Origin: Candidatus Aminicenantota bacterium
Lineage (GTDB): Bacteria > Acidobacteriota > Aminicenantia > Aminicenantales > Aminicenantaceae
Direction of reading: 5' to 3'
Length of the DNA stretch: 42,479 nt
Assembly: GCA_021162615.1 (NCBI GenBank)
Contig: JAGGYH010000086.1
Span: 1-42,479 of the forward strand
The translations under genes were made by a program, and so were the position numbers. Within the stretch, counting starts at the first letter, position 1; every line of letters begins with the position of its first letter. Below are positions 237 to 40,019 of this stretch, one piece after another. The notes under the pieces are model-generated. The model ran no database searches. It worked only from the letters and a program-made list of their open reading frames with translations, and was not told where the DNA came from.

Positions 237-941
237 CTAAGGTGAGAGCGGCTCTTTTTGATTGATACTCTCCTCCACTTTCTCAATCAACTCGTGCATG
301 TTTTTATGATGGTACTCTTTTACTGAGATGGCAGGGTGGAATATGATTTTGATTTTCCCTTTTTTTATAAAATAGCTTCCCCTTGGCATAAGGTCATAGG
401 TCCCTATGATGGATATAGGAACAATAGGCGTTTGGCTGTCGATAGCCATAAAAAAACCACCCCGTCTGAATTTCTGAAGTCTTCCGTCGCTGCTTCGAGT
501 CCCTTCCGGAAAAATAAGAAAAGAGACATTGTTTTTTTTTATCATAAACACAGCTTTTTGCACAGCTCTCTTCCCTCCCTGTTTTCCCATTCGGTCAACG
601 GGAATGAAGTGAGCCTCTTTCATGGCCTGTCCCACTACAGGGAGACGAAATACTCCCTGTTTCAGAATAACTCTCACATTCTGAGGGATGGATTTAAAGA
701 TAAGGGGACCGTCCAGCATACTGAGGTGATTGGGCATGAAGATATATCTGTGGTCTTTTTTTATCCTGTGGAGCCCCTTGTATTCAATTCTGAGCCCAAG
801 AATGACCTCTCCTACAGCGACCGCATGTTTACCCAAAAAAAAGAGAGGTTCCGGCCGGTTATAAAGGGCACATACCAGAAGAATGGGTGTGAGCATGAGG
901 GCGCAGAATACAATAAAAAGATAAAGAATGATAGAACGCAT
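237..941 (-). CDS. plsC: 1-acyl-sn-glycerol-3-phosphate acyltransferase (PlsC family)
   Basis: NHLSMLDG (HX4D motif) and FPEGTRSSDG motifs, with an N-terminal TM segment. Confidence 0.9.
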   Translation of the reverse strand: MRSIILYLFIVFCALMLTPILLVCALYNRPEPLFFLGKHAVAVGEVILGLRIEYKGLHRIKKDHRYIFMPNHLSMLDGPLIFKSIPQNVRVILKQGVFRLPVVGQAMKEAHFIPVDRMGKQGGKRAVQKAVFMIKKNNVSFLIFPEGTRSSDGRLQKFRRGGFFMAIDSQTPIVPISIIGTYDLMPRGSYFIKKGKIKIIFHPAISVKEYHHKNMHELIEKVEESINQKEPLSP

Positions 942-1039
942 GATGTATCATTATAATGATTATTCCAGGTGAATGCGAGAGATGAAATTTGCTTTTTATC
1001 AGGCAGTCATGATAAATTAATTGAATAAAGGATTGAGAA

Positions 1040-1606
1040 TTGGATTATTTAATAGAAATCGCTGAAGAGCTGAATAAAGCAGCCAGGAGTTTTTTTGATA
1101 AGAACGGGAATCTGCTTGAAGAAGTGATCCGGAAGACAGCAGAGCATTTAAAAAAAGGAAAGAAAGTTCTGGTTTTTGGGAATGGAGGGAGTGCGGCTCA
1201 AGCCCAGCATTTTTCTGCAGAACTGGTAAACAAGTTCTTGAGAAACAGGAAGGCTGTTCCTGCTGTTTCCTTAACCACGGACACTTCGGCTTTGACTTCA
1301 ATTGCAAATGATATGGGTTACAGCCAGGTTTTCAGCCGTCAGATCCAGGCATTAGGCAGGGAACAGGACGTAGCCGTGGGGATTTCAACCAGCGGAAATT
1401 CCCTGTCAGTGATTCACGCGTTAAAGGCAGCCAATGATAGGGGACTTATGACCGTGGCCTTAACAGGCAAAGGCGGAGGAAATCTGGCTGAGATTCCGGA
1501 CTATCTTTTGGATGTGCCTTCCGCTTCGACACCCAGAGTTCAGGAAGTGCACCTTTTGATCCTTCACATCATGGCACAGGAAATCGAAAGCAGCCTCTCA
1601 AAATAA
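1040..1606 (+). CDS. gmhA: Phosphoheptose isomerase / SIS-domain protein (TTG start)
   Basis: FGNGGSAAQAQHFSAELVNKF and GISTSGNSLSVIHAL match the GmhA SIS pattern. Confidence 0.88.
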   Translation: MDYLIEIAEELNKAARSFFDKNGNLLEEVIRKTAEHLKKGKKVLVFGNGGSAAQAQHFSAELVNKFLRNRKAVPAVSLTTDTSALTSIANDMGYSQVFSRQIQALGREQDVAVGISTSGNSLSVIHALKAANDRGLMTVALTGKGGGNLAEIPDYLLDVPSASTPRVQEVHLLILHIMAQEIESSLSK

Positions 1607-1615
1607 AGAGAATGC

Positions 1616-3469
1616 TTACCGGCTCCGCCAAAATCCGCCTCTTTTGGGTCTGGTTTTCGGAATAAAAGACTTTTTCTCCTTTTCAGGTTCGCTCTTTTCC
1701 CCGCCTTCTTTATTTAAATAGACTTTGGACCTTTCTTCGCTTTTGTCTATTCTGAAGGAACGCTCTGCAGCCCACAGCACTTCGTCCCTGAGTCCTTCTT
1801 TAGCGACTTCCTCAGTGAATTGTCTCCTTCCCAGGACCAGCTTGTGGATATACTGCTGGATCTCCTGTTCGGAGTAATATTTTCCGGGGTCCCACTCGTC
1901 AAGGTTTTGGCCTTCAGCCTTGACAATCTGCCGGGTTCCCAGCCTTCCTTTCTCATATGTATTGGTCCCGCGCACATCCCCTCTTTGTATCTGGGCCATA
2001 AGGTTTATGGGGATACGCTTGACTTTACGGACAAGCTTTTTTTTCTTTGTTCCGTTTTCCTCATATGTTTCTATGACCTCTCCCATGCCTCCGGTGTTGT
2101 ACTGCATGCACTTGAGCTTGTCCGGATGATTGCTGGAAAGAGTCATGAGAATCTCATAAAGGCGGTTGACCTTTTTGGCTCTGGACCCGATGATGAATGG
2201 GTCTGTTCCTACGATCCGAACAGTCTCGCCGGCTTTGGCAGGCTGGCTGGCATAGGAATGAGTGCTTTCTCCCCATAAATAAGCAAGAACAGCCTGGGCC
2301 GGAGTGAGTTCCTGGGCAAAGGACATGATGGTGTTCCGCCTGGTGATAAAAGCAAAAATCAGCCCGTCCATCTCTTCGATAGGGGGAAGATTGATAGAGT
2401 CGGAAAAGATGTCGACCATTTTCCCGTCTATTTTTACCTGGAGCTTTTTGCGCTGGATCACGGCTCTTCCGTTGGCGGTCAGGCTTTCGTCTAGAAAGTC
2501 AGGTTCTCCGTTAGCCTTGATCATCACGTTTTCATAAAGGGCTGATTTGTCAATCAAAGCATTGTACATGGCTTCCTGATATTTTTCTTCTACATCGGTT
2601 TTGACAAAAAAGTTATTCTCTGAACCCAGTGCAGAACCGTCTTTTCTCAGAAAGCAGATGTCGTCCTGTGTCACAAGGGTTTTCTCGCCTTTGCTGTGGT
2701 CAAGCCCCAGTTGGTGGCAGGACCATGTGGATTTTCCGGTCGCTGTAAGCCCGAAGAGGAAAACACCGTATTTTTTTAATTTTCCATCCTGACCCACAGC
2801 CGTTACTTTTTTGGTCCCTGCATGAAGCCCCAGCATGCCTTTGGTGTCAGCCGCCCACATGGCCTGGCGTAAAAATCCCTTTTTATCCTCTCCCATATAG
2901 TCGGTTCCCAGTGCCACATTGATATTGTGTTCCGGGATGGCCAAGACCTGCTGTTTTAAGGGATGTTCTTCGGGAATATGGATCATAATGAATTCGGGCC
3001 CTGGTCTTTTTTTGGGGCTGTTTTCCGGTTTGAACATGGTCGTGCCCCACATATATCCTATGCGGTAATTCGTCATATCTGCTTCAGGAACAATGAGATG
3101 GCATATGGGATTGAACACATCGTTTTCGCCCATCCTGCGGCGGATGTGGTAAAAAGGCATGGTTCTGAGAAGATGAAGCACTTTGTCCAGCTCTTCAGGG
3201 GCAGCTGATATGATGTTTTTCTGCTCTTTACTGGGGTTGGGAAGCCTGACCGGTTCTGTGCCTAGGTAAACGGTTTTAGGAGCGATGCGGCTGGATATGG
3301 CTGCGCGCCATCCGTAGGAGCCGTATTTTGTTTTAACGCCTGCGTCTTTAGCCCGTGATCCCAGCCACTTCAGGCTGACTGTTCGGATATTGGGTCCCTG
3401 AAGGACTCTTTTCAGCTCTTCCGCGAATTTTTGATAAGCTTTTAAATCAAATATGTTTTCGTCATTCAT
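1616..3469 (-). CDS. Divergent ATP-type phosphoenolpyruvate carboxykinase-like protein with charged C-terminal tail
   Basis: P-loop GLTATGKSTWS; YMGEDKKGF...LGLHAGTK, VTQDDICF, ALYENVMIKANGEPDFLDESLTANGRAVIQ and MQYNTGGMGE align in order with ATP-PEPCK motifs. Confidence 0.8.
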   Translation of the reverse strand: MNDENIFDLKAYQKFAEELKRVLQGPNIRTVSLKWLGSRAKDAGVKTKYGSYGWRAAISSRIAPKTVYLGTEPVRLPNPSKEQKNIISAAPEELDKVLHLLRTMPFYHIRRRMGENDVFNPICHLIVPEADMTNYRIGYMWGTTMFKPENSPKKRPGPEFIMIHIPEEHPLKQQVLAIPEHNINVALGTDYMGEDKKGFLRQAMWAADTKGMLGLHAGTKKVTAVGQDGKLKKYGVFLFGLTATGKSTWSCHQLGLDHSKGEKTLVTQDDICFLRKDGSALGSENNFFVKTDVEEKYQEAMYNALIDKSALYENVMIKANGEPDFLDESLTANGRAVIQRKKLQVKIDGKMVDIFSDSINLPPIEEMDGLIFAFITRRNTIMSFAQELTPAQAVLAYLWGESTHSYASQPAKAGETVRIVGTDPFIIGSRAKKVNRLYEILMTLSSNHPDKLKCMQYNTGGMGEVIETYEENGTKKKKLVRKVKRIPINLMAQIQRGDVRGTNTYEKGRLGTRQIVKAEGQNLDEWDPGKYYSEQEIQQYIHKLVLGRRQFTEEVAKEGLRDEVLWAAERSFRIDKSEERSKVYLNKEGGEKSEPEKEKKSFIPKTRPKRGGFWRSR

Positions 3470-3492
3470 GTTTGTATCATATGGGTGTATTT

Positions 3493-5841
3493 CTATTCTT
3501 GTTTTTCTTTCATTAAGTCTAATATATGGTCAGGTTTTGCCTGGCCGCTGTTTATAAGGAAGCAGGAAGTGTTTTCCAGTAATCTTTTATAAAAGTCTCT
3601 CTGTGATTCCATCCGGTCCGGTGTTGTCAGGAGAATATGGGGATTATAAAAAGGATTTCTTTTTGCCGGGCCTATTTCCGGGAGGGTCCCCAGGCTTTCT
3701 CCGGATTCCAGCATTCTCAGGGCGTCTTCCGCTTCCAGTTTGACCGAGGGAGGGGATACATTATCTTTCCTGAGGATAAACAACCAGCTGAGGGAGCTTC
3801 GTTTGACATGCTTTTCTGGCCCTTTGATCCAGTAAGGGTCTAAGAGAGCATATGAATTTTTTCCGGCTTCATAACAGAATGGAGAACCTCTATCCAGACG
3901 GCAGTCATCTTTCTCAAGGCAGGCTTTGTTTTGACATTCTTCTTTTTTAAGCACCACATTTTCGCATTTGCTGTTGTCAAAAAACGAGGCGAATTGAGCG
4001 TCATACTTCACCGCACTGGTGGGCATGAACAGTTTTCTTTCCGGAGTATCGGCTATTGGAACACGGCCGGAAAATCTGACAAATACGATCTCGTTTGACT
4101 GGAGGCGCATGGCCGGATTCCGGAGCAGATCGAAGAAAATATTTGTTTTACTGGTTCCTTTGGGTCCTATAAGCACAAAGGAACGGCCATGGAATTCAGC
4201 AGACATGCCCCGGACTGCGTGGACATTGAAAAGCCTCTCTGAAACATCCATGACCAGTCCGAATGCCAGGCTTCGCAGAGGGCCGTAGTTATCTGTATTG
4301 ACAATGATTCCGGTTTTTGTTTCCGAGTTGTAAAAGGCCCGGGGTTCACGTCCCGGGATTTTATCCACTGCATAAATGATACCATGAGGCTCTAAATCTG
4401 ATTCCAGTTGAGCCGGATACCAGTTTTCGACCCAGAAGTCATAAAGATGGGGAACATTTGTCCTCAACTGAACGATAACACCATTGATATTCGCATTCCA
4501 TTCAAAATAGTTATCATAACTGAGATGGGTTTCCATCTCTGTGACCAGGGCTTCCTTCATCTGTATGGAGAGAGATGAGTCAACAGGAGGTTTAGACTGA
4601 TAGCGGGTTATGGAATTGTTAAGGGAAATTCTTTTTATTTTTTTGGCGGGTTTGAGTTCGGAGAGAGCTTTAGAGATCCGGTCCATCCCCTCTTCGAGGT
4701 TTTCCATGGACGTGGCATAGGATATGCGGATATATCCTTCAGCTCCGAAAGCTCCGCCCGGAACGATCGCTACTTGGCTCTCTTTTAAGAGATAATAAGC
4801 CATGCCAAAGGAATTGCGTATCTGGTTGTTTTTGAATTCTTTATCAAAAAACGAGGATACATTTGGGAATAGATAAAAGGCGCCCTTGGATTCGAAACAG
4901 GAGATTCCAGGGATAGACTTTAATCTCATGAGTGTGTAGTTTCTTCGCCTATGAAATTCTGAAGCCATTTTTGAAATGGTGTTTTGAGGCCCTGAAAGAG
5001 CCTCAAGGCTTGCTTTTTGGGAGATAGAACAGGCGTTGGATGTGGTATGGCCCTGGATTCGATTCATAGCGCTTATGATTTCAGCAGGTCCGGCAGCATA
5101 TCCTATTCTCCAGCCTGTCATGGAGTAAGCCTTGGACACACCGTTTATAATGACTGTTTTATTTTTTACTTCTTCACCCAACGACGCAAAGCTGTGGAAT
5201 TCAGCCTCTTCGTACACAAGTTTTTCGTAGATCTCATCAGCGATCACAAAGATATCTTCTTCGAGGATAATATCGGCAAGCGCTTCCAGCTGTATTTTTT
5301 TGTAAACAGCCCCGGTCGGATTGCATGGATTGTTAAGGATGATAGCTTTTGTTTTGGGCGATATGGCTGATTCCAGCTGTTCGGGAGTTATCAAGAAGCC
5401 GTTCTCTTCTTTGGCTTGAATAGTAACAGGCTTTCCATTAGCTAAAGATACTGCGTGAGGATATGTCACCCAGTATGGCGCAGGAATGATGACTTCATCC
5501 CCTTTGTTTATTATGGCTTGGATAAGATGGTAAAGCGAGCTTTTGGCTCCTGAGGAGATAATGATCTGGTTTTTTTCATAATCCAGGCCGTTGTCTTTTT
5601 TCAGTTTCTCTATGACAGCCTGCTTGAGGGAAGGCATGCCGTCTATCTGGGTGTATTTGGTGAAGTTTTCTTCAATCGCTTTAACAGCGGCCTTTTTGAT
5701 ATTTTCAGGTGTGGGAAAGTCCGGCTCTCCCACACTGAGATCGATCACATCCATTCCCTGGGCTTTCATCGCCTTAGCTTTGGCGTTGACCTTAAAAGTT
5801 GGCGATTCGCCGATTTGATTTGCCTTTTCTGATAAAATCAT
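3493..5841 (-). CDS. Fusion protein: class I (Ib) aspartate aminotransferase (about aa 1-400) plus HprK/PEPCK-like P-loop module (about aa 428-782)
   Basis: N-terminal half: VGEPDFPTP, APYWVTYP, NNPCNPTGAVY, and PLP-lysine motif VSKAYSMTGWRIGYAAGP. C-terminal half: NVHAVRGMSAEFHGRSFVLIGPKGTSKTN, resembling the HprK Walker A region. One uninterrupted frame. Confidence 0.85.
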   Translation of the reverse strand: MILSEKANQIGESPTFKVNAKAKAMKAQGMDVIDLSVGEPDFPTPENIKKAAVKAIEENFTKYTQIDGMPSLKQAVIEKLKKDNGLDYEKNQIIISSGAKSSLYHLIQAIINKGDEVIIPAPYWVTYPHAVSLANGKPVTIQAKEENGFLITPEQLESAISPKTKAIILNNPCNPTGAVYKKIQLEALADIILEEDIFVIADEIYEKLVYEEAEFHSFASLGEEVKNKTVIINGVSKAYSMTGWRIGYAAGPAEIISAMNRIQGHTTSNACSISQKASLEALSGPQNTISKMASEFHRRRNYTLMRLKSIPGISCFESKGAFYLFPNVSSFFDKEFKNNQIRNSFGMAYYLLKESQVAIVPGGAFGAEGYIRISYATSMENLEEGMDRISKALSELKPAKKIKRISLNNSITRYQSKPPVDSSLSIQMKEALVTEMETHLSYDNYFEWNANINGVIVQLRTNVPHLYDFWVENWYPAQLESDLEPHGIIYAVDKIPGREPRAFYNSETKTGIIVNTDNYGPLRSLAFGLVMDVSERLFNVHAVRGMSAEFHGRSFVLIGPKGTSKTNIFFDLLRNPAMRLQSNEIVFVRFSGRVPIADTPERKLFMPTSAVKYDAQFASFFDNSKCENVVLKKEECQNKACLEKDDCRLDRGSPFCYEAGKNSYALLDPYWIKGPEKHVKRSSLSWLFILRKDNVSPPSVKLEAEDALRMLESGESLGTLPEIGPAKRNPFYNPHILLTTPDRMESQRDFYKRLLENTSCFLINSGQAKPDHILDLMKEKQE

Positions 5842-5863
5842 CTTCTTAATCTCAAATTAAATA

Positions 5864-7270
5864 TCAGTCTTTTTCTTTTTTTTCAGTGCTGAATTTTTCC
5901 TTAAGGTATTCTTTGAGGTCAACACCTGTTAGGGATTTCACTACGTCCGGCATTTGAGCCAGCACATCCGCGACCTGGGAAGTAATTTTTGTGGCTCCTG
6001 TCCCTTTCTCTCCTCCCACTAAGACGATCTTATCGACCTTTGACAGAGGTTCGGAAACGTTTTTCGCAAGTTCAGGAAGTATCTTCAGATAGTTATCAAG
6101 GAAGGCGGCCTGGTTGTATTTGCTCCAAGCCTGTGCTTTTTTCATCATGGCTTCAGCCTCTGCAGCGCCCTGCGCTTTTATTTTTTCTGCCTCAGCTTTT
6201 CCTTCTAACTTACTGGCTTCGGCTTTTCCCTCTGCTTCTGCTTGAATGCGGTAGCCTTCTGCCTCAGCTTCCGCCTTGATCTGGTATTTTCGGGCATCTG
6301 AAGGTTTTATGACCGTGGCATCGAGCTCCTTCTCTTTTCGCTTGATTTCCATTTCCTCTATTTTTATGGCTTCCTGCTTCTCAATGGCCCTGACTTTGGC
6401 CTCTTCTTTTTTGATTTCCTGGCTCAATCTATGACGTTCCAGTTCGTAAGCATGGTCTGCCTGGGCTTTTTTGCTGTTTACCTCGACTTGAGACTCTGCT
6501 TTTTTAGCCTCATTTTCCCACTGGGCTTTGGCAATGAGTGCTTCAGCGTTTAATCTGGCGACTTCTCCTTCTTTTCTAGCCTGTGATGATTTTATGATCG
6601 CTTCTTTTTCAGTTTCGGCTTCGGCAATAGCCGCATCCCGTTTAGCTGCAGCGATGTGCGGTTTTCCCAGAGCATCCAGATAGCCCTGAGTGTCATTGAT
6701 TTCTTTTAGGGAGAAGGAAAGAAGGATGAGCCCCATATTCGAGAAGTCTTTTTTTACTGATTCAATAACCTTTTCAGCGAATTCATGCCTTCCTCTGTAT
6801 ATGTTTTCCACTGTCATGGAACCTATTACAGCTCTCATCTTTCCGTCTAGTATTGTTTGAGAGACCTCTTTGATTCCTTCTTTGCCGGTTCCAAGGAATT
6901 GTTCTGCGGCAAGGTGGATTGAATCGTCATTAGAGTCAATTTTGACCTGGGCTGATGCTTCTGCCTGAATGAGGATTCCGTTGTGTGTGAGCACTTCCGG
7001 GGTTTTAAGACTGAGGTTGATCACATCCATGGGAAGTTTGTCCACTGTTTCTAACAGAGGCCATACAAATGTCCCGCCTCCTAAGCGGTAGCGGTAACCT
7101 ATTTTTCGTTTTCTACCGTCTGGAAGTGTTAAGGTCTTTTTCAAGCCGCCTGAAATAATCAGGGCTTCATTGGGCCCTACTTTTCTGTACTGCTTAGCGA
7201 TTAAAAAAGACAGGAGAACTATGGCTACAACAATAATCGCGATTATTATTATTGTGGAGAGAGATATCAT
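5864..7270 (-). CDS. Flotillin-like SPFH/band 7 membrane protein
   Basis: N-terminal TM, SPFH region, then a long Ala/Glu/Lys coiled coil with repeated AEAEAEGYRIQAEAEGKAEA. AGGAGG Shine-Dalgarno upstream. Confidence 0.88.
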   Translation of the reverse strand: MISLSTIIIIAIIVVAIVLLSFLIAKQYRKVGPNEALIISGGLKKTLTLPDGRKRKIGYRYRLGGGTFVWPLLETVDKLPMDVINLSLKTPEVLTHNGILIQAEASAQVKIDSNDDSIHLAAEQFLGTGKEGIKEVSQTILDGKMRAVIGSMTVENIYRGRHEFAEKVIESVKKDFSNMGLILLSFSLKEINDTQGYLDALGKPHIAAAKRDAAIAEAETEKEAIIKSSQARKEGEVARLNAEALIAKAQWENEAKKAESQVEVNSKKAQADHAYELERHRLSQEIKKEEAKVRAIEKQEAIKIEEMEIKRKEKELDATVIKPSDARKYQIKAEAEAEGYRIQAEAEGKAEASKLEGKAEAEKIKAQGAAEAEAMMKKAQAWSKYNQAAFLDNYLKILPELAKNVSEPLSKVDKIVLVGGEKGTGATKITSQVADVLAQMPDVVKSLTGVDLKEYLKEKFSTEKKEKD

Positions 7271-7312
7271 CGTAACCTCCTTTTTTCATACCACATAATA
7301 TAGTGAAAAAGT

Positions 7313-7341
7313 ATTATAAAGATTTGTCAGACATTTTTAAA
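7313..7341 (-). promoter_or_regulatory. Candidate promoter for the flotillin-aminotransferase fusion-PEPCK operon
   Basis: On the minus strand TTTAAA-N17-TATAAT, about 36 nt ahead of the ATG, with AGGAGG in between. Confidence 0.4.
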
Positions 7342-7349
7342 GAAATAAA

Positions 7350-8291
7350 TTACACCGATGAAAGGATTTGTTTTTTGAAATACTCCACAGTGCGCTCCAA
7401 ACCCTGGTCAAGACTGATTTTTGGTTCCCAATGCAGCTTTTCTTTAGCAAGGGTGATATCAGGACACCGGCGCAGAGGGTCATCTTTGGGAAGAGGCTTG
7501 AATGTTATTTGGGATTTGCTTTTTGTGATTTTAATCACTTTTTCTGCAAGCTCAAGGATGGAGTGTTCCTCAGGGTTGCCCAGGTTAACGGGCCCTGTAA
7601 ATCTTTTGGTTTCCATCATGGATATCAAACCGCGGACCATGTCCGACACATAGCAGAAAGAGCGGGTTTGTGTGCCGTCGCCAAAAACAGTGATAGGTTT
7701 TCCTTTAAGGGCTTGAACAATAAAGTTACTCACAACTCTGCCGTCATCCAAGGCCATGTGAGGGCCGTATGTGTTGAAAATACGGCATATCTTTATATCA
7801 ACCTTATTTTGTCTGTGATAATCCATCGTGAGAGTTTCAGCGACCCTTTTTCCTTCGTCATAGCAGCTTCTTATTCCAATGGGATTGACATTTCCCCAAT
7901 ATCCCTCGGTTTGAGGGTGAACGGCCGGATCTCCGTATATTTCCGATGATGAGGCAAGCAGGATTTTTGACTTTGTCCTTTTCGCCAAACCAAGCATATT
8001 TATGGTTCCCGTGACATTGGTTTTTATTGTTTTTATGGCATTGTACTGATAGTGAATAGGGGAAGCAGGACAGGCGAGATGATATATCCCGTCGATTTCA
8101 GCAAAAAAGGGATGTATGATGTCGTGCCTGACGAATTCAAAATAAGGGTGGCTGATATAATCCCTTATGTTGTTTTTGCTTCCAGAGAAGAAATTATCTA
8201 TACAAAGGATGTCTTTTTTTTGGTTGAGCAGTTCTTTACAAAGGTGGCTTCCTAAGAATCCAGCTCCCCCGGTAACCAGTATTCTGTTCAT
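7350..8291 (-). CDS. UDP-glucuronate decarboxylase / NAD-dependent sugar epimerase (SDR)
   Basis: [10 protein letters not shown] Rossmann motif, [11 protein letters not shown] (YxxxK), [25 protein letters not shown] typical of UXS. Confidence 0.87.
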
Positions 8292-8293
8292 AT

Positions 8294-9043
8294 TTATTCC
8301 TTGTGGTTGTAGGCAATGAAGAGGGGGCTTTTGTTTTTGAGGATTTGTTTTTGTGACTGAACGATTTCTGTTATTCCTTTTTCAGCCATATCAAGGAGTT
8401 CATGGAATTTTTCCTTAGCAAAGGGAGATTTTTCAGCAGATGCCTGTATTTCAACAAAATGACCAGTATCAGTCCCGATGACATTCATATCTATGGATGC
8501 GTTTGAGTCTTCTATATAGTCAAGGTCTAAAAGGCATTCTTCGTTTACAATACCAACGCTTACGGCTCCGGCCAGGTTTTTCAGAGGCATTTGTTTGATC
8601 TGGTTTTCATCCAGAAGTTTTTTGAGTGCGAGAGCAAGGGAAATACACCCTGCTGTAACAGAGGCGGTCCTGGTGCCTCCGTCTGCCTGTATCACATCAC
8701 AGTCGATGATGATGGTTCTTTCCCCCAGAGTTTTCAGGTCGGTCACAGCTCTCAACGAGCGCCCTATGAGCCTCTGGATTTCCTTGGTTCTTCCCGATAT
8801 TCTTGCGCCTCTTTCTCTTCTGGTCCTTATCTCGGTCGAACAGGGCAGCATGGAATATTCAGCAGTGATCCATCCCAAACCTTTCCCTTTGAGAAAAAGA
8901 GGGACATTTTCTTCTATGGTGGCCGATGCAATGACTTTTGTTTTTCCCAGTTCTATCTGAACGGAGCCGTCTGAATAATCAAGCAGATCCGGTTTGAATT
9001 TTAACGGTCTTAACTGGTCTGCCTTTCTGTTATATGATCTCAT
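8294..9043 (-). CDS. rph: Ribonuclease PH (start at internal [16 protein letters not shown])
   Basis: RNase PH motifs [54 protein letters not shown]. The six-frame ORF extends to 9097, but family length favours 9043. Confidence 0.93.
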
Positions 9044-9100
9044 CTGTTTGATTCTGTCACGAATATAAAGAATAGTACACTTGCCGAAAAAGTTCAAACA

Positions 9101-10030
9101 TTAAAAATCCGGTGGGAGTTCGTCCGCACCTTCTTCTTCATCTAACGGGCGGCTTCTCCAGCGGTCATGAAACCATAACCACAGATAGGGCTGCTTTTGT
9201 ATTTCTTTTTCTATGATATCCGTGCAGGTCTGTGTGATGTGTTTCACGTCTTTGTGGACATCCCCTGTCAACCTCAAATGAGGCGGCTCCATTATTTTCA
9301 GATGATAGCTGTGTTTTGCAGAGGGACAGCAAAATATAGGTATTATGGGAGCTCCTGTTCTCAGAAAAAATGTAGCCAAAGAGGGAGTGGTAGAGGCTTT
9401 TTCCCCAAAAAATTGAATAAACACACCTTCTCTTCTCAAAACATTCTGGTCAATAAGCACAGCAACGATCTCATTTCTGCGAAGGGCTCTGAGGGCATGT
9501 CTGGCCGCATTTTTTTTGTAAATCACATGAGACCCCACATTGGATCTCATGCGAGAGAGTTCTTTTTCTAGAAGGGGATTGTCCAGGGGCCTGGCTATGA
9601 CATTGAGTTTTTCATATTTGGATAATATATGAGCTGCGATCTCCCAGAGACCGAAATGCGCGGTAAAAACAAGGACTCCTTTTTTTCGGCCCAGATGATT
9701 TTCAAGAATTTCTTCCCCTTCTGCTGAAATCAATTTGTCTTTTTGTTCAGATTTAAGACCGGATATTCGTATGAAGTCAAGGAAGACCTGACAGAAATGG
9801 GCAAAAGAGGCTTTGATTATCTTTTTTTTGGTACTGTGGGAGAGTTTGTTTCCGAAGGCTGTTGTTAGGTTGGAATAGGCTAAGCGCCTGTGTTTTTTAT
9901 CCAGAACAAACAGGAGAAATCCCAGGATAGGGCCCATGAGAAACACTGCCTTTCGAGGGAAGATTTCCAGAACGGCCTTTGCGCCGCAGAACATTGAATA
10001 TTCAAGTTTGTGTTTTAAAGAAGCGTTCAT
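9101..10030 (-). CDS. lpxL: Lipid A biosynthesis acyltransferase (LpxL/HtrB family)
   Basis: TAHFGLWEIAAH (HX4D/E-type), LIDQNVLRREGVFIQFFGEKASTTPSLATFFLRTGAPIIPIF; ATGA overlap with lpxK. Confidence 0.87.
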   Translation of the reverse strand: MNASLKHKLEYSMFCGAKAVLEIFPRKAVFLMGPILGFLLFVLDKKHRRLAYSNLTTAFGNKLSHSTKKKIIKASFAHFCQVFLDFIRISGLKSEQKDKLISAEGEEILENHLGRKKGVLVFTAHFGLWEIAAHILSKYEKLNVIARPLDNPLLEKELSRMRSNVGSHVIYKKNAARHALRALRRNEIVAVLIDQNVLRREGVFIQFFGEKASTTPSLATFFLRTGAPIIPIFCCPSAKHSYHLKIMEPPHLRLTGDVHKDVKHITQTCTDIIEKEIQKQPYLWLWFHDRWRSRPLDEEEGADELPPDF

Positions 10031-11022
10031 TGTTTTTGTAAGTTAATGCTGGAAAAAATCCGGTCGAAAAATCCTTGCTCTATATCGAGATCGATTTTTA
10101 CGTAATACACGGGCATGTTTTTGAAGCGGTTTTCCCCCTCAAGTTTGACTGAGTCTTTTTCAGTCGTGACCAAAATGTCAGTTTTGAGTGAGCTGTGTTT
10201 TTCCATTATTTTGTTCATGGCTGTTAAGGGGTAGTCATAGTGATCTGGAAATTTAAGGAAGGCAGCAGGTCTTATCCCCATTTCCTCAAGTGTTTTTTTA
10301 AATCTTTCGGGCCGGGCTATACCGCAAAATGCCAGTATTTTTTTCTGTTTGAACACGTCTGCGGCAAGGAGCTGGTTTGTCCCTATTTTTACGAATCCTT
10401 TTGGGGATACAGAATATTCATGGACAGATATTCCTTGCAGTCTTGATTTAAGCCTGGCTTTTTTATCTTCCGGAGAATTTTTTTTAAGCAAAACTATATG
10501 GGCTTTATTAAGCGCAGAAAGGGATTCGCGAAGCAGCGGTTTCTTTGATATATCGTGAAGGACAATATCCAGGTCTTTCTTAAGCGGATAGTATTGAAAC
10601 CCGTCATCCAGAACAGCTACGCCATATCCTTTTTTGTCTGCATTTAGGCATGATGCGATGCGGTTTTTCCCCAGAAAGATTCCTGCTTCCGGAACATTCC
10701 GTGCTGTCATATAAGGTTCGTCTCCTGTGGTCTTCCAATACGGGACTTGATTGTGCTCCGGCAGAACTGTGCCTCCCCGCTTTTCCCATTTTCCTTTGTA
10801 ACCGCGGGAGATATAAGCGGGTTTAAAACCTTTTTCCAGAAGAATCTTGATGAGCTTTATGGATAGGGGTGTTTTTTCCGAGCCTCCGAATGTGATGTTT
10901 CCTATACTGATGACAGGGATGGGAACAGACTGCTGTTTCTTTATGTTTTTTTCATACAGAAATCTCATGTATCTTGAGCCAGCTCTGTAAAAGAGAGACA
11001 GGAAGCAGAGGATTGATTTCAT
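10027..11022 (-). CDS. lpxK: Tetraacyldisaccharide 4'-kinase
   Basis: PVISIGNITFGGSEKTPLSIKL, VLDDGFQYYPLKKDLDIVL, GIARPERF. Confidence 0.9.
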   Translation of the reverse strand: MKSILCFLSLFYRAGSRYMRFLYEKNIKKQQSVPIPVISIGNITFGGSEKTPLSIKLIKILLEKGFKPAYISRGYKGKWEKRGGTVLPEHNQVPYWKTTGDEPYMTARNVPEAGIFLGKNRIASCLNADKKGYGVAVLDDGFQYYPLKKDLDIVLHDISKKPLLRESLSALNKAHIVLLKKNSPEDKKARLKSRLQGISVHEYSVSPKGFVKIGTNQLLAADVFKQKKILAFCGIARPERFKKTLEEMGIRPAAFLKFPDHYDYPLTAMNKIMEKHSSLKTDILVTTEKDSVKLEGENRFKNMPVYYVKIDLDIEQGFFDRIFSSINLQKQ

Positions 11023-11031
11023 TTATTCTGG

Positions 11032-11061
11032 AATATATAACATTTGGCTGTATGATGGCAA
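11032..11061 (-). promoter_or_regulatory. Candidate promoter for lpxK-lpxL
   Basis: Minus-strand TTGCCA-N18-TATATT; predicted TSS about 3 nt ahead of the lpxK ATG. Confidence 0.35.
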
Positions 11062-11090
11062 ATATTATTGATATAGAGATGCGGGATGTC

Positions 11091-11119
11091 TTTACATTGA
11101 AATCTTGTTTCTTTATAAT
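11091..11119 (+). promoter_or_regulatory. Promoter for the lipoprotein gene at 11149
   Basis: TTTACA-N17-TATAAT; downstream AAAGGAGG Shine-Dalgarno. Confidence 0.7.
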
Positions 11120-11148
11120 TATGCATATTTTAATAAAGGAGGCTGGCC

Positions 11149-12015
11149 ATGCGGAAAAAGCTATATATTCTCGGATTAATACTAATGCTGGTATTTGTAT
11201 CTCACAACTGCAAGCAGAAATCAGCCATAAAAGGTGTCGACCTTGATGTGACTTTTTCAGAAGAGACACTAACGGATAACCTGGTTACTGACATGACATT
11301 TCTATGGGCAACGAACAGTGAATTTGAGGGGATGAGAAGGGACTATAACGTATTTGTCCATTTCTGGCATGGGGATAATCTTCTTTTTCAAGCAGATTAT
11401 TTTCCTGAAATCCCGACTTCCAAATGGGAACCTGAAAAAGAATATAAATTCACTCAAAGGATCTATATCCCTGTTTTTATAGATGAATTTGATCCGGACT
11501 TCAAAGGGGAAGAGACCCTGAATCTTTCTGTCGGATTTTATTCTCCTTATGATAAGACGGGAGAATCCGAACAGATGATCCTCAATCGTAAACTAAAAGT
11601 GACGCCGCCTCCGCTGGATGCTCCTCAAGTCATCTATATGGACGGCTGGTATGGGCTTGAAATGAACAGGGACTATCATTTCAAGAATTGGAGATGGACA
11701 GCCAAACAAGCCAAATGTATCATTGATAACCCTCATCGGGATGCCCTGCTTATCATAAGAGGAGAAGTGAACAAAAGTGCGGTCGAGGGACAGAAAGTGA
11801 CATTTATGATCAATGATACCATTCTGGATGAATTTGTCCCTGAACACGCAGTTTTTGAAAAGACATATACTGTTAACAAAGAGAAACTCGGGGAAGATGA
11901 TGATTTTTATTTAACCATAGCTACAGATAAGACCTTCGTTCCTTCCCAGTTATTTCCTGAATCTACAGATGAGCGGGAACTGGGAGTAAAGATCTCTTTT
12001 ATCTATTTCAGATAA
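11149..12015 (+). CDS. Putative lipoprotein of unknown function, beta-rich
   Basis: Signal peptide followed by Cys (VSHNC, atypical lipobox); strong RBS and promoter; no family recognised. Confidence 0.75.
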   Translation: MRKKLYILGLILMLVFVSHNCKQKSAIKGVDLDVTFSEETLTDNLVTDMTFLWATNSEFEGMRRDYNVFVHFWHGDNLLFQADYFPEIPTSKWEPEKEYKFTQRIYIPVFIDEFDPDFKGEETLNLSVGFYSPYDKTGESEQMILNRKLKVTPPPLDAPQVIYMDGWYGLEMNRDYHFKNWRWTAKQAKCIIDNPHRDALLIIRGEVNKSAVEGQKVTFMINDTILDEFVPEHAVFEKTYTVNKEKLGEDDDFYLTIATDKTFVPSQLFPESTDERELGVKISFIYFR

Positions 12016-15775: not shown

Positions 15776-17377
15776 TCAGAAAATCAGATTTTCTCTGTAG
15801 GTCCCGTAGGTTTCTTTGAGTACGGATGTGATTTCTCCGATAGTTGCCATTTCTTTGACACAGTCATATATAAAGGGCATCAGATTCTTATCGGATTGAG
15901 AGGCCTGTTTTAAGGAATTAAGACTTGATTTCAGTCTTTTCTCCGATCTCAGGCGTTTTATTTGTTTGAGCTGTTTTATCTGGTTTTCTTCTATTTCTTT
16001 GGGAGGATGGTAGATTTCAAATGGCGGCCTGCTTTCCTTGGAAACAAACTTATTGATTCCGATTATTTCTTTTTGATGGGTTTCAAGCTGTTTCTGGTAG
16101 GTGTATGCGCTTTCCTGGATTTCCTTTTGAATGAAGCCTTGTTCGATGGCTGTGAGCATACCGCCCATGTCTTCGATTTTTGTGAGATATTTATTGACTT
16201 CTTCTTCAATCCGATCTGTGAGGCTTTCGATAAGGTAAGAACCGCCTAAAGGGTCAACCACATCAGGCACACCGGTTTCATACGCTATGATCTGCTGTGT
16301 TCTGAGGGCAATCCTGACCGATTCTTCAGTGGGAAGCGCCAGGGCTTCGTCTCTTGAATTCGTATGCAGGGATTGGGTTCCGCCCAGAATGGAGGAGAGC
16401 GCTTGAAGGGTGACTCTTATCACATTGTTTTCCGGTTCCTGGGCTGTAAGAGCGGCCCCGCTTGTTTGTGTATGGAATCTGAATTTCCAGGATTTTGGAT
16501 TTTTGGCCTTGAATCGGCCCCTCATTATCTTGGCCCAGAGCCGCCTGGCAGCCCGGAATTTTGCGATTTCTTCAAATAAGTTATTATGAGCGGCCAGGAA
16601 AAAAGAAAGCCGTGGGGCAAATGTATCAGCATCCAGGCCGGAATCAAGAGCTGCCTGGACATAGGTTATGGCATTGGCAAGCGTAAAAGCCAGTTCCTGG
16701 ACGGCTGTGGCTCCCGCTTCTCTTATATGATAGCCGCTTATGCTCATGGTATTCCAGCGGGGCATGTGCTTATGACAAAAACTGATTATATCATTGATGA
16801 TTTTCATGGAGGCACGAGGAGGGAATATATAGGTCCCCCTTGCTATAAATTCTTTAAGGATATCGTTTTGTATGGTTCCGGTGAGCTGTGAGCCGGAGAT
16901 CCCTTTTGATTCAGCCAGAACCAAATATAAAGCCAGAATCACAGCAGCGGTTGAGTTTATGGTCATGGATACAGATACTTTTTGCAGAGGAATTTTTTCA
17001 AAAAGTATTTTCATGTCCTGAAGGGAATCAATGGCAACCCCGACTTTTCCGACTTCTCCGCATGATTGAGGATGGTCTGAATCCAGACCTAACTGAGTGG
17101 GAAGGTCAAAGGCCACGCTCAGCCCGCTCTGGCCTTTTGAAAGAAGGAATCGATACCGTTTGTTTGATTCTCGAGCTGTTCCAAAGCCGGCATATTGCCG
17201 CATTGTCCACAGCTTCCCTCTGTACATATCAGGGTAGACGCCTCTGGTAAAGGGATATTCTCCTGAATTCCCCAGATTCTTTTGGAAATCAGGTGAGTCA
17301 ATATCCTTTTTTGTATAGATGCGTTTCAGCTCAAGGGATGAGGAGGTTGTGTGTTTTTTCTCTCTATCGTCCGCCAT
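15776..17377 (-). CDS. Methylmalonyl-CoA mutase large (catalytic) subunit, no B12-binding domain
   Basis: YPFTRGVYPDMYRGKLWTMRQYAGFGTARESN, GTIQNDILKEFIARGTYIFPP, FHTQTSGAALTAQEPENN, VDPLGGSY. Confidence 0.92.
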   Translation of the reverse strand: MADDREKKHTTSSSLELKRIYTKKDIDSPDFQKNLGNSGEYPFTRGVYPDMYRGKLWTMRQYAGFGTARESNKRYRFLLSKGQSGLSVAFDLPTQLGLDSDHPQSCGEVGKVGVAIDSLQDMKILFEKIPLQKVSVSMTINSTAAVILALYLVLAESKGISGSQLTGTIQNDILKEFIARGTYIFPPRASMKIINDIISFCHKHMPRWNTMSISGYHIREAGATAVQELAFTLANAITYVQAALDSGLDADTFAPRLSFFLAAHNNLFEEIAKFRAARRLWAKIMRGRFKAKNPKSWKFRFHTQTSGAALTAQEPENNVIRVTLQALSSILGGTQSLHTNSRDEALALPTEESVRIALRTQQIIAYETGVPDVVDPLGGSYLIESLTDRIEEEVNKYLTKIEDMGGMLTAIEQGFIQKEIQESAYTYQKQLETHQKEIIGINKFVSKESRPPFEIYHPPKEIEENQIKQLKQIKRLRSEKRLKSSLNSLKQASQSDKNLMPFIYDCVKEMATIGEITSVLKETYGTYRENLIF

Positions 17378-17379
17378 GC

Positions 17380-18675
17380 TCAGAAGATATATTTTGAAAA
17401 AGCGTTTTTGCCTGTATAGGAACCCTTTTGGCCGAGGATCTCTTCGATTTCCATAAGCCTGTTGTATTTAGCGGTCCTTTCTCCCCTGCTTACAGAACCT
17501 GTTTTTATTTGCCCTGTGTTGAGAGCGACACTTAGGTCAGCGATAAATGTATCCGAGGTTTCTCCAGACCTGTGTGATATGACACAGGAATAACCTTTTT
17601 TCTGGGCGTATTTAACCGTATCGATGGTCTCTGTGAGGGTTCCGATCTGGTTCAGCTTGATCAGTATTGAATTCCCTATTCCCTTTTTTATCCCCTGTTT
17701 CAGTATGCTTAGATTTGTCACAAAGATATCGTCGCCCACAAGCTGGATCTTTTTGCTGAACTCGCGGCTCATTTTCTCCCACCCTGGCCAGTCATCTTCT
17801 GCAAATCCATCCTCAATGGATATTATGGGATAGTTTTTTATGATCTCCCTGTAAAAGTCGTTCATTGCCTGGGCATCTTTTATTGAGCCGTCGGATTTTT
17901 TGAACACATAGTGACCGTCTTCATAAAATTCTGAAGCCGCTGCATCTAATGCCATGAAAATATCACTTCCCGGTTGATAACCGGCGCTTTGAATGCTTTC
18001 AAATATCAGTTCCAGGGCCTCTTCATTTGATTTAAGGTTAGGCGCAAAACCTCCTTCGTCCCCCACAGAGGTGCTGTAGCCATTCTTTTTGAGGTTATTT
18101 TTCAGATTGTGAAAGACTTCTGCCGCCATTCTGATCGCCTCTGTAAAATTGGGACAATTGATGGGAGCGATCATGAATTCCTGGATATCCACGTTATTGT
18201 CTGAGTGAGAGCCTCCATTGAGTATGTTTATAAGAGGAACAGGAAGTTGATAGCTTCCTTTCGTTTCCAAATACTCAAAGAGTTCAAGGCCCAGAGCATT
18301 CGCTGATGCAGCCGCAGCAGCCATGGATACAGAAAGTATGGCATTGGCTCCCAGATTTTTCTTAGACGGAGTCCCGTCTATCTCTATGAGCGTCTTATCT
18401 ATTTTTTCCTGTTCTATGCTGTCAAGACCTATGATTTGCGGTGCGATGATTTTTTCCACATTGGCAACTGCTTTTAAAACTCCTTTTTTTAGGTATCTTT
18501 TTGGGTCATTGTCTCTGAGTTCCAGAGCTTCGCGTTTTCCTGTGGAGGCTCCTGAAGGGACAGAAGCTTTTCCTGAAACGCCGGATTCAAGGATCACTTT
18601 TGTGCTGACCGTTGGATTCCCCCTGGAATCCAGAATCTCCCTTGATTTGATTTTCTTTATGGTTGTTTTTGACAT
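17380..18675 (-). CDS. eno: Enolase
   Basis: [59 protein letters not shown]. Confidence 0.97.
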
Positions 18676-35262: not shown

Positions 35263-36708
35263 ATGGTTCTAAAACAGCAGTTAAGTCAAAAGCAGGTTCA
35301 AAAAATGGTCCTTGCACCTGCGTTGCAGCAGGCCATTAGGCTTCTTCCGCTGACAAATTTGGAGATTATTGAGGTCATAGATGTGGAATTAAGCGAGAAT
35401 CCTTTACTTGAGATAAAAGAAGAGACACAGAAAGAAGATAGGGAAGACCAGAAAGATAATAAGGAGCAGGAAACGAGCGCAGATGAAACAGGCGATTCTT
35501 TAGAACGAGAAGATGATAAGGAATTTGAAGCAATGTATGAGCAGTACTTTGACAACAGATTCAATTCCTTTTCCATGGAGAAAAAAGAATCCCCTGAATA
35601 TGAAAAATTTATCACAAAGGCTCCTTCTCTCTGGGAACGTCTCGACTGGCAAGCCAATATGACCTTTTTTTCAAAAAAGGAAAAGGAAATAGCTCAATAT
35701 ATCATAGGAAATATAGATGAAGACGGGTATCTGGCGACCTCTTTGAAGGATATTTCAAAAGCTGTTAAAGCTTCTTTGGATAAGGTCGAACAGGTGAGAA
35801 AGAAAATAATGAACTTTGATCCTGTTGGAGTGGGGAGTCTTTCTCTTAAAGAGGCACTTTTGGCTCAATTGGATTATATGGAAATTGAAAATGAAAATCT
35901 CAGAAATATCATTGAAAACCATCTTGGCCTTTTGGAAAGATCCCGTTATGAGGAACTGTCCAAACATTGTAACATTTCTCTTTCTGAGGTAAGAGAGGTC
36001 ATTGAAGAAATCAGGAGATTGAATCCGAGACCCGGAAGAAAATACACTCAGGAAAAAACGGATTATATTATCCCTGATATTCTTGTGGAGAAAGCAGATG
36101 ACAGGTACACCATAAAGGTTAACAACGAAGGGATTCCAAGCCTCAGGATAAATAAATTTTATAGAAAACTCATTGCACGCGCATCAAAGGACAATCCTGA
36201 AGCCTATGAGTTCTTAAAGGCTAAATTGAAAAAGGCATTCTGGTTTTTGCGGAGTCTGGACCAGAGAAATAATACCATTAATAAAGTGGCAAATTTTATT
36301 TTAGAGAAGCAGAAGGATTTTATAGAGAAAGGACTGGATTATATTAAGCCATTGACTTTGATTGAGCTGGCCCAGGAGATCGGGGTGCATGAATCCACTG
36401 TTGGACGCGTTGTAGCAAACAAACATATAATGACACCTCGAGGAGTGTTTCCTTTGAAATATTTCTTTCATAAAGCTCTTTCAAGGGATTCAGGTGAAGA
36501 GGTTTCCACCTTGAGAATAAAGGAAAAGATAAAAAAATTGGTTGAGGGAGAGGACAGGAAGAATCCATTGAGTGATGTTGAAATAAGCGATGTCCTGGCA
36601 AAAGAAAGTTTCAATATAGCGCGGCGAACAGTAGCAAAATACAGGAAACAATTAAAAATTCCGCCTTCTCATATAAGAAAGAGAAGATATTTGATGGAGG
36701 GATCATGA
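35263..36708 (+). CDS. rpoN: RNA polymerase sigma-54 factor
   Basis: N-terminal LKQQLSQKQVQKMVLAPALQQAIRLLPL and RpoN box ARRTVAKYRKQLKIPPSHIRKR. Confidence 0.96.
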   Translation: MVLKQQLSQKQVQKMVLAPALQQAIRLLPLTNLEIIEVIDVELSENPLLEIKEETQKEDREDQKDNKEQETSADETGDSLEREDDKEFEAMYEQYFDNRFNSFSMEKKESPEYEKFITKAPSLWERLDWQANMTFFSKKEKEIAQYIIGNIDEDGYLATSLKDISKAVKASLDKVEQVRKKIMNFDPVGVGSLSLKEALLAQLDYMEIENENLRNIIENHLGLLERSRYEELSKHCNISLSEVREVIEEIRRLNPRPGRKYTQEKTDYIIPDILVEKADDRYTIKVNNEGIPSLRINKFYRKLIARASKDNPEAYEFLKAKLKKAFWFLRSLDQRNNTINKVANFILEKQKDFIEKGLDYIKPLTLIELAQEIGVHESTVGRVVANKHIMTPRGVFPLKYFFHKALSRDSGEEVSTLRIKEKIKKLVEGEDRKNPLSDVEISDVLAKESFNIARRTVAKYRKQLKIPPSHIRKRRYLMEGS

Positions 36709-37232
36709 TAAACATAAATTATACAGGCAGACAGACAAACATTTCAGATGAAATAAGAGATTTTTGTGAAAAAAGGATCAAAAGTACGGAAAAGCTGATC
36801 AGTTCGCCTGCGGAGGTGGATATTATATTGTCAGTAGAAAAATACCGTCATAAAGTGGAGATCCATATTTCTTCAAAAGGATTCAACTTAAATGCGGCTG
36901 AGGAGACAAGGGATATGATTTCTTCCCTGGGACTTGCTTTTGATAATATTGAGAGGCAGATAAAAAAAGAGAAAGATAAGGTGAGGCACCGAAAAAGGAG
37001 AATAAGGAAGGAATCCGAGACCTTTGTGGTTGAGGGAGAATTGCAGAATAAGGGAAGGAGGATTATAAAAGATGATGATTATTCATTAAAACCAATGTCA
37101 CTGGACGAAGCAGCCCTGTTGTTTGACTCAAAAAAGAGAGATGTCTTTGTCTTCAGGACCCTTGAGAAACAAAATTGGGCGATTTTATATAAAAGGAAAG
37201 ATGGAAACCTGGGTCTGATCGAACTCGAATGA
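36705..37232 (+). CDS. hpf: Ribosome hibernation promoting factor (long form)
   Basis: INYTGRQTNISDEIRDFCEKRIKSTEKL plus C-terminal KPMSLDEAALLFDSKKRDVFVFRTLEKQNWAILYKRKDGNLGLIE. Confidence 0.92.
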   Translation: MININYTGRQTNISDEIRDFCEKRIKSTEKLISSPAEVDIILSVEKYRHKVEIHISSKGFNLNAAEETRDMISSLGLAFDNIERQIKKEKDKVRHRKRRIRKESETFVVEGELQNKGRRIIKDDDYSLKPMSLDEAALLFDSKKRDVFVFRTLEKQNWAILYKRKDGNLGLIELE

Positions 37233-37247
37233 AATAGAGAGATAAAA

Positions 37248-37718
37248 TTGAAAGTAAGCAATTTAATAACGAACAATATGGTCATTTTGGATTTGGAAAG
37301 CAATAGTCGTGACGAAATCATAAGGGAAATGGTCTCTTTTTTAAAGGCGAGAAAGAAGGAAATAAAAGAGAAAGACCTGTATGAGCGGCTGATACAAAGA
37401 GAGGAACTCGGCAGCACCGCTATTGGTGAGGGATTTGCCATTCCGCACTGTAAAGTTAAATCTGCAAAGGATTTGACTGTGCTTCTTGGGATATCCAGGA
37501 AAGGAGTTGATTTCCATTCTCAGGATAACAAGCCTTCATTCATATTTTTTCTGGTTGTTTCTTCTCCGGATAATCCGAGTGTCAATTTACAAGCTTTGGC
37601 GGCTATCGCCCATCTCATACGTAAGTCAAAAAATCTTATCAAAAAGATACTCAATGCTAAAAACATAAGTGAGGTTTTAACGGTTATCCAGGATGAAGAG
37701 GACCGTATAGATGAGTAA
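37248..37718 (+). CDS. ptsN: PTS IIA (Ntr-type)
   Basis: REELGSTAIGEGFAIPHCKV (active-site His), rpoN-hpf-ptsN context. Confidence 0.9.
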   Translation: MKVSNLITNNMVILDLESNSRDEIIREMVSFLKARKKEIKEKDLYERLIQREELGSTAIGEGFAIPHCKVKSAKDLTVLLGISRKGVDFHSQDNKPSFIFFLVVSSPDNPSVNLQALAAIAHLIRKSKNLIKKILNAKNISEVLTVIQDEEDRIDE

Positions 37719-38316
37719 GTCTGGCAAAAATTTTTCTGTCGAAGAAGAAAATTTGAACCAGAAAGTGGTTTCAGGGGGGCTGCTCCAGATCAATGGGCTC
37801 GGTGTCTTGATCAAGGGGGACAGTGGAATCGGAAAGAGCGAGAGTGCTCTTGAGTTGATATCGAGGGGATGGCGTTTTGTTTCTGACGATGTGACGAATA
37901 TAAAAAAAATATCAGAAGACAAACTCATAGGGACATCACCTTCTTTGAGCCGCTATTTTATGGAGATAAGAGGACTTGGAATTATCAATATCAAACAGAT
38001 TTTCGGATCCAAGGCCATTTGTAAACGCTCAAAGATAGATTTGGTTATAAACTTAAAAAAGTGGGAGCAGAATAAAGAATATGACCGCCTCGGTCTGGAG
38101 TCCCCGGAAAAACACGAACTGTTAGGAGTAAAAATCCCTCAGATTATCATCCCAGTCGCCCCGGGGAGGAATATCTCTACTTTGATAGAAGTAGCCTGTA
38201 AAGTGCAGGTGCTGAAAGAGAAAGGGTACCATGCCCCAAAGGAGATTACCTATAGACTGAAAAGGGACATTGCCTCAAAAGAAGGAAAAAGGAATAAAAA
38301 AATTGACAGATTATAA
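37711..38316 (+). CDS. hprK: Short HPr kinase/phosphorylase (catalytic domain only)
   Basis: GDSGIGKSESALELISRGWRFVSDD and MEIRGLGIINIKQIFG signature, IPVAPGRN. Confidence 0.9.
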   Translation: MSKSGKNFSVEEENLNQKVVSGGLLQINGLGVLIKGDSGIGKSESALELISRGWRFVSDDVTNIKKISEDKLIGTSPSLSRYFMEIRGLGIINIKQIFGSKAICKRSKIDLVINLKKWEQNKEYDRLGLESPEKHELLGVKIPQIIIPVAPGRNISTLIEVACKVQVLKEKGYHAPKEITYRLKRDIASKEGKRNKKIDRL

Positions 38317-39160: not shown

Positions 39161-39277
39161 GATTTAAGATGGATACTTTTAGTGTGGTATAAAGGGCTTA
39201 ATGTATTTGTTCATACGTGCTAAAATGGTTTATCAGTGAGAAACATGGGTGCAAAGAAGATGAGTGGATTTAGGATG

Positions 39278-39306
39278 TTGGAATATTTTAAACTTTATTG
39301 TATAAA
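39278..39306 (+). promoter_or_regulatory. Candidate promoter for the EIIA(Man)-ptsH-ptsI operon
   Basis: TTGGAA-N17-TATAAA; predicted +1 about 5 nt ahead of the ATG at 39318. Confidence 0.5.
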
Positions 39307-39317
39307 TGGAAAATAAA

Positions 39318-39722: not shown

Positions 39723-39743
39723 CTTTTGTTTTAACTGGGATCC

Positions 39744-40013: not shown

Positions 40014-40019
40014 TCTCTG

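Follow-up and report, generated by a model that had tools for sequence, protein, structure and literature searches.

The known class Ib aspartate and prephenate aminotransferases (1bjw from Thermus thermophilus, 6f35 from Rhizobium meliloti, 5wmh from Arabidopsis) are single-domain enzymes of about 390-410 aa. The ATP-PEPCKs (PckA; 2pc9, 1j3b, 1ayl) have a two-lobe fold with a P-loop, HprK (1ko7, 1jb1) and the HprK-related kinases A and B contain a P-loop strand-helix, and the FloT-type flotillins (NF058507) are SPFH proteins. The window, which here means the whole 42,479-nucleotide stretch of DNA that was analysed, comes from an uncultured Aminicenantes-type bacterium (Acidobacteriota) and brings relatives of all of these together at a single locus.

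The window encodes a fusion protein whose N-terminal domain is like the class Ib enzymes throughout, with all catalytic residues in common, but which continues into a second domain of 380 aa. Compared with PckA, this C-terminal module has the same predicted two-lobe fold with the P-loop in the same place, but it is only 14-17% identical, its metal triad is incomplete, its P-loop is altered, and it has a Cys motif added and an aminotransferase fused to it. Its likeness to HprK and the HprK-related kinases A and B is local, around the P-loop strand-helix; unlike HprK it has no conserved catalytic His, Asp pair or P-loop Gly, and it additionally has an N-terminal PEPCK-like lobe. The SPFH protein encoded upstream matches the FloT-type flotillins over its whole length, but its 390 bits fall short of the cut-off of 700, and its gene is tied to the fusion gene. 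The features of the locus are as follows.

1616..3469 (-): divergent ATP-type PEPCK, 617 aa (PF01293 and motif alignments)
3496..4644 (-): apparent pseudo-PEPCK module, aa 400-782 of the fusion protein (AlphaFold2, Foldseek, VIA, residue statistics)
3874..3936 (-): Cys motif C-x4-[C/H]-x5-C-x8-C, aa 636-656 of the fusion protein (conserved ligands)
4651..5841 (-): class Ib aspartate aminotransferase domain, aa 1-397 of the fusion protein (PF00155, structures, residues)
5864..7270 (-): flotillin-like SPFH/Band-7 protein of FloT type, 468 aa (Pfam and NCBIfam)

Fusion gene and distribution

The fusion gene is one unbroken ORF of 782 codons (3493-5841, minus strand), in agreement with the original prediction of a single-frame fusion, and both stretches quoted in that prediction, the PLP-lysine motif SKAYSMTGWRIGY and the C-terminal NVHAVRGMSAEFHGRSFVLIGPKGTSKTN, are present in its protein. 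A genus mate has a counterpart of all 782 aa, 85% identical over its whole length. A frameshift, a missed stop or a chimeric contig as the source of the fusion was ruled out by the conservation of the fusion at full length in this genus mate and in over a hundred other genomes; the missed stop or frameshift between the halves that had been named as a possible flaw was thus not borne out.

Within the phylum the module is present in 43 of 396 genomes, in 41 of them in open frames of 769-799 aa and in two cut by contig ends. A strong match to the fusion protein was found in 78/94 genomes of the host order, where every match not cut by a contig end is fused, with genome G297 as the sole exception. 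A scan of a public genome collection with one genome per species gave 191 loci, and 80 named loci were fetched; in all 80 the module is fused or cut by a contig end. By their metagenome-bin names, which may be wrong, the majority of the fetched loci belong to Candidatus Aminicenantes / Acidobacteriota and others to Fischerbacteria, Ignavibacteria/Bacteroidetes, Calditrichota, Zixibacteria, Latescibacterota, Gemmatimonadota and TA06. Stand-alone C-terminal homologues, a search for which had been proposed, were absent from the 43 phylum genomes and the 80 named loci, the short cases being contig ends. The fusion is real and old. Pfam models recognise only the aminotransferase half of the window's fusion protein, so ordinary annotation would miss the rest.

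Aminotransferase domain

The aminotransferase class I/II model PF00155 matches the N-terminal part over its full length (2-361/361, E 1.4e-80), and among solved structures this part comes closest to aspartate and prephenate aminotransferases (Z 49-55, 42-47% identity). The catalytic residues are intact (PLP Lys237, Arg372, Asp202, Tyr205, Asn174 and Arg245), and the dicarboxylate/prephenate-type residues Thr15 and Lys100 are present. Lys237 is found in 107/107 and Arg372 in 110/110 members where the position is present; Asp202, Tyr205, Asn174, Arg245 and Thr15 are likewise invariant where present and Lys100 is invariant bar one (104-110 of 111 members, the remainder being gaps or single exceptions). 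Because class Ib structures are nearest and the catalytic residues are invariant, the domain is taken as an active aspartate aminotransferase, a substrate assignment by homology. Thr15 and Lys100 are presumably needed for prephenate too, and their conservation makes both aspartate and prephenate possible substrates, so that the domain possibly uses prephenate as well. The fused gene is the best match to a class Ib aspartate aminotransferase in the host genome, whose other family members are at most 34% identical.

Fold of the C-terminal module

The original prediction assigned the C-terminal part to an HprK-like P-loop domain of the HprK/PEPCK superfamily. No Pfam family matches residues 400-782 of the window's own protein: PF01293 gives no match and PF07475 none over its gathering score, and the only hint is the PEPCK subfamily model NF006821 (E 8e-5, 21.4 bits against a cut-off of 369). 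Among 90 members the HprK model TIGR00679 matches 34 (best 5.8e-8), the HprK-related kinase A and B models match 15 and 9, respectively, a PEPCK model matches 11, and PF07475 matches 6 (E up to 0.01). A sequence search of the module alone against the PDB returned nothing, a profile search against solved structures returned HprK and Trypanosoma cruzi PEPCK weakly, and a global profile-profile comparison with canonical PckA gave an E of 8.6e-7.

A structure search with the model of the whole fusion (AlphaFold2 pTM 0.51, domain arrangement uncertain) listed only aminotransferases, and the module was therefore modelled alone. AlphaFold2 on 90 homologues gave a PEPCK fold with pLDDT 89 and pTM 0.88, as a structure check of the superfamily call would have it. 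Foldseek placed PEPCKs first (E 9e-17), and VIA-align superposed 340 of 383 residues on Thermus ATP-PEPCK 2pc9_D (Z 27.9, rmsd 2.9), spanning residues 38-458 of that enzyme and hence both lobes. As modelled, the module is a whole two-lobe PEPCK fold that extends beyond an HprK-type P-loop lobe. The superfamily assignment thus stands, whereas the extent of the domain had been drawn too small.

A genuine short HprK is encoded elsewhere in the window (37711-38313, plus strand; PF07475 E 7e-61, 205 bits) and serves as an internal control for the fused module. It lies in an rpoN-associated regulatory PTS cluster (35263-41786, plus strand) with genes for sigma-54, a hibernation factor, EIIA, the short HprK, RapZ, EIIA-man and enzyme I.

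Active-site residues and cysteine motif

Residue equivalences were taken from alignments to E. coli PckA, HprK and the neighbouring PEPCK, and residues were counted over 111 fusion members; the alignment is less certain at Asp269 and Arg333 than at the P-loop and His232. The window's protein has a degenerate P-loop, GPKGTSKT (aa 559-566), which is usually GPxGTKKT across members. Its Lys (K565, the Lys254 equivalent) is kept in 94/111 members and is Arg in 17/111, and T566 is kept in 101/111. The Mn-ligand triad of PEPCK (E. coli Lys213, His232 and Asp269) is complete in 0/111 members: the Lys213 equivalent, residue 524, is mostly Ser (Lys in 13/111), the His232 equivalent, residue 544, is Arg in 95/111 and His in 14, and residue 584, whose equivalence to Asp269 is not uniquely fixed by the alignments, is Asp or Glu in 111/111. 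No conserved Arg was found across members in the part of the module corresponding to the E. coli Arg65 region.

The P-loop Lys is combined with Arg544 in 94 members, and His544 and Lys565 occur together in none of the 111. All 17 P-loop-Arg members have Arg664, 14 of them with His544, and the likely Arg333 position (alignment ambiguous) is Arg in 17/17 of these and in 4/94 of the others. The P-loop-Arg clade keeps both the fusion and the flotillin. A reciprocal swap is apparent, P-loop Lys going with Arg544 and mostly no Arg664, and P-loop Arg going with Arg664 and usually His544.

Read against HprK, residue Arg544 (Arg in 95/111) takes the place of the catalytic His. Most members have Asn for the first residue of the Asp-Asp pair, with an acidic residue retained at the second, and Lys where HprK has the P-loop Gly. 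The His of 'NVHA', which the original prediction had read as the catalytic residue of an HprK-type His-x(n)-P-loop layout, does not hold up in that role, as column 541 is His in only 43/111 members.

Because the metal triad is complete in none of the 111 members, the PEPCK active site is read as lost, and the module is apparently a catalytically dead PEPCK homologue, or pseudo-PEPCK, judging from these residues. Nucleotide binding may survive in most members, since the P-loop Lys and Thr are kept in most and the acidic residue 584 in all.

The module also contains the motif Cys636-x4-[Cys/His]-x5-Cys647-x8-Cys656, whose four potential ligands are kept in 110/111 members when small spacing shifts are allowed; in the exception, L066, two ligands are gone together. 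This Cys3(Cys/His) motif is a putative metal site, Zn or Fe-S, and may add metal or redox sensing to the module.

Flotillin gene and a natural deletion

The gene 22 bp upstream of the fusion gene, on the same strand, matches PF01145 (Band_7; E 1e-27, 97.8 bits against 23.6) and PF15975 (Flot; E 2e-8, 34.8 bits against 27). Its match to the FloT model NF058507 is strong but below the cut-off (E 1e-116, 390.5 bits against 700), and by these family models its product is a member of the flotillin family and not FloT proper. A flotillin gene lies directly upstream of the fusion in 72 of the 73 named loci with usable upstream sequence, the exception being L147, where no flotillin is found in the 1.5 kb upstream. 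When 32 genomes were screened, flotillin was found in 12/12 fusion carriers and 1/20 non-carriers, and in that one non-carrier the flotillin gene runs off the end of its contig. One fusion-bearing genome has another flotillin copy away from the cassette (G232:C31:9474-10865), with 47% identity to the one in the cassette.

The exceptional genome G297 (97% complete) has a stand-alone 406-aa aminotransferase, 63% identical, at the syntenic position. Alignment by blastn to G451, a genome of the same genus with the normal arrangement, showed that two segments are cleanly missing from G297. The first, about 1.44 kb long, holds the flotillin gene, and the second, of about 1.03 kb, covers nearly the whole module; the genes on either side and the aminotransferase are intact. 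No flotillin orthologue was found elsewhere in G297. Another genome, G061, has a stand-alone aminotransferase (62% identity) and is likewise without the cassette flotillin. Because both were deleted in G297 while the aminotransferase stayed intact, the module and the flotillin appear to depend on each other; the co-deletion, seen in one genome, ties the module more closely to the flotillin than to aminotransferase chemistry.

Genes for lipid A and the cell envelope surround the cassette in the host order (237-12015 in the window), including an acyltransferase, an SIS-domain isomerase resembling GmhA, a lipid A acyltransferase, LpxK and a UDP-glucuronate-decarboxylase-like epimerase. These envelope genes do not accompany the cassette into other phyla.

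Neighbouring PEPCK

The gene 23 bp downstream of the fusion gene matches PF01293 (E 1e-24, 87.6 bits against 26.5) and scores 283.6 bits against the cut-off of 369 for NF006821, which marks it as a divergent member. Its KK, His, ATGKSTW, QDD and NGR motifs are invariant in 10 homologues and align to the motifs of solved PEPCKs and of E. coli PEPCK. It is the only PF01293 match in the host genome, in which PF00821 is absent.

A PEPCK gene is adjacent to the fusion in 41 of the 80 named loci. Two gene orders occur: the PEPCK gene follows downstream of the fusion gene on its strand, or, in other phyla, it lies upstream of the flotillin gene and diverges from it. Across phyla only the flotillin, fusion and PEPCK genes recur. 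The original prediction had not taken the flotillin and PEPCK neighbours into account. Pairwise distances of the three genes correlate over 45 loci (r = 0.89-0.96), as expected if they were inherited jointly, although common ancestry by itself also produces high values.

Of 44 genomes with the fusion, 23 contain the adjacent-type PEPCK alone, 17 GTP-PEPCK (PF00821) alone, two both and two neither, a near-exclusive pattern (Fisher p 4e-8, uncorrected for shared ancestry). Most families of the host order lack the adjacent PEPCK and have GTP-PEPCK in its place. From this pattern, the neighbouring gene probably encodes a working PEPCK, for which one branch has substituted the GTP enzyme, and the fusion does not require it as a partner.

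A related, shorter PEPCK (about 540 aa; E about 1e-130 against the profile of the neighbouring PEPCK) occurs in four genomes of the same class without fusion or flotillin (G005, G021, G048 and G241), three of which are covered by loci L211-L213. Elsewhere in the window, a methylmalonyl-CoA mutase large subunit gene adjoins an enolase gene (15776-18675, minus strand), a hint of carbon metabolism of the propionate/succinate type close to the PEP node.

Proposed function and alternatives

The combination of an aspartate-making enzyme, a dead PEPCK and a membrane scaffold suggests a carbon/nitrogen crossroads that is anchored or controlled at the membrane. In our main reading, to which we give a probability of roughly 0.55, an active aspartate aminotransferase carries the pseudo-PEPCK as a docking or regulatory domain, and the chief partner of that domain is the co-encoded flotillin/SPFH scaffold. 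The pseudo-PEPCK, having gained a putative Cys/His metal site, would act as a docking or regulatory domain rather than as an enzyme and would couple the aminotransferase to the flotillin membrane scaffold, presumably by physical binding. In many lineages the neighbouring working ATP-PEPCK would belong to the same unit as the fusion and the flotillin. Such an assembly would position or adjust, at the membrane, the branch point between aspartate, oxaloacetate and PEP (Asp + 2-oxoglutarate to OAA; OAA to PEP, or the reverse), and the signal to it might be nucleotide state, metal/redox state or both. More tentatively, this may be a flotillin-organised metabolic assembly found in several phyla, in which the pseudo-PEPCK is both adaptor and nucleotide/metal sensor at a membrane branch point. 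Against docking, gene adjacency could reflect co-regulation, the adjacent PEPCK is often replaced by GTP-PEPCK, and the fusion in L147 has no flotillin in the 1.5 kb upstream.

The original prediction also offered a self-regulated or nucleotide-sensing aminotransferase, which is possible. In the strict form of that idea the module would be a nucleotide- and metal/redox-sensing allosteric domain for its own aminotransferase only, with the flotillin linked for another reason, e.g. membrane localisation of the pathway or co-regulation. The kept residues (K565 in 94/111, T566 in 101/111, acidic 584 in 111/111), through which nucleotide binding may persist, and the conserved Cys3(Cys/His) motif would suit such a sensor, but we consider it rather unlikely, as the G297 co-deletion ties the module to the flotillin, beyond the aminotransferase alone, and a whole clade without the P-loop Lys keeps fusion and flotillin. 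It is far less probable that the neighbourhood is a co-expression operon only and that the module serves structurally, in oligomerisation, unconnected with flotillin or PEPCK; the 22 and 23 bp gaps on one strand do look like a simple operon, but the genes stay together in two arrangements across phyla, and flotillin and module were lost together.

Catalytic roles for the module fare poorly as well. The matches to TIGR00679 (34/90, best 5.8e-8) and to the HprK-related A and B models (15 and 9), with the acidic residue at the second HprK Asp position, would be in keeping with an active HprK-type kinase/phosphorylase acting on a protein or small-molecule substrate. The fold, however, matches a whole PEPCK, the HprK His is replaced by Arg in 95/111 members, the first Asp is mostly Asn and the P-loop Gly mostly Lys, the P-loop Lys is Arg in 17/111, and no member has His and Lys together, so that such a kinase is very improbable. 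The same replacements of the HprK His (95/111) and the P-loop Lys (17/111) disfavour the protein kinase acting on the aminotransferase that had been suggested. Consecutive metabolic steps are often fused, and the full PEPCK fold and a P-loop pattern, GxxGTxKT, resembling the GLSGTGKT of PEPCK would be compatible with a module that works as a PEPCK, or as an oxaloacetate decarboxylase-like enzyme, through a re-arranged active site, which would make the fusion a bifunctional aspartate-to-PEP enzyme. We give this little credence, since the Mn-ligand triad is complete in 0/111 members, the stretch of E. coli Arg65 has no conserved Arg, a separate PEPCK with intact motifs is encoded next door in the host, and most lineages without an adjacent PEPCK carry GTP-PEPCK.

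Significance

Among the open-access papers searched, including those on Aminicenantes PEPCK, none was found to describe the fusion, a pseudo-PEPCK domain or a flotillin linked with an aminotransferase and a PEPCK. The parts belong to known families; the structural core is well supported and the mechanism is proposed. If the pseudo-PEPCK does serve a flotillin-linked assembly, it would to our knowledge be the first pseudo-PEPCK regulatory domain, and we know of no earlier metabolic enzyme evolutionarily locked to a bacterial flotillin. PEPCK would then have passed in evolution from catalysis to a regulatory or docking role, and bacterial flotillins, whose clients are poorly defined, would gain a specific and testable metabolic partner. 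Since no gene of the host comes closer to a class Ib aspartate aminotransferase than the fused one, the way it is controlled would matter for nitrogen assimilation and gluconeogenesis in these widespread uncultured bacteria.
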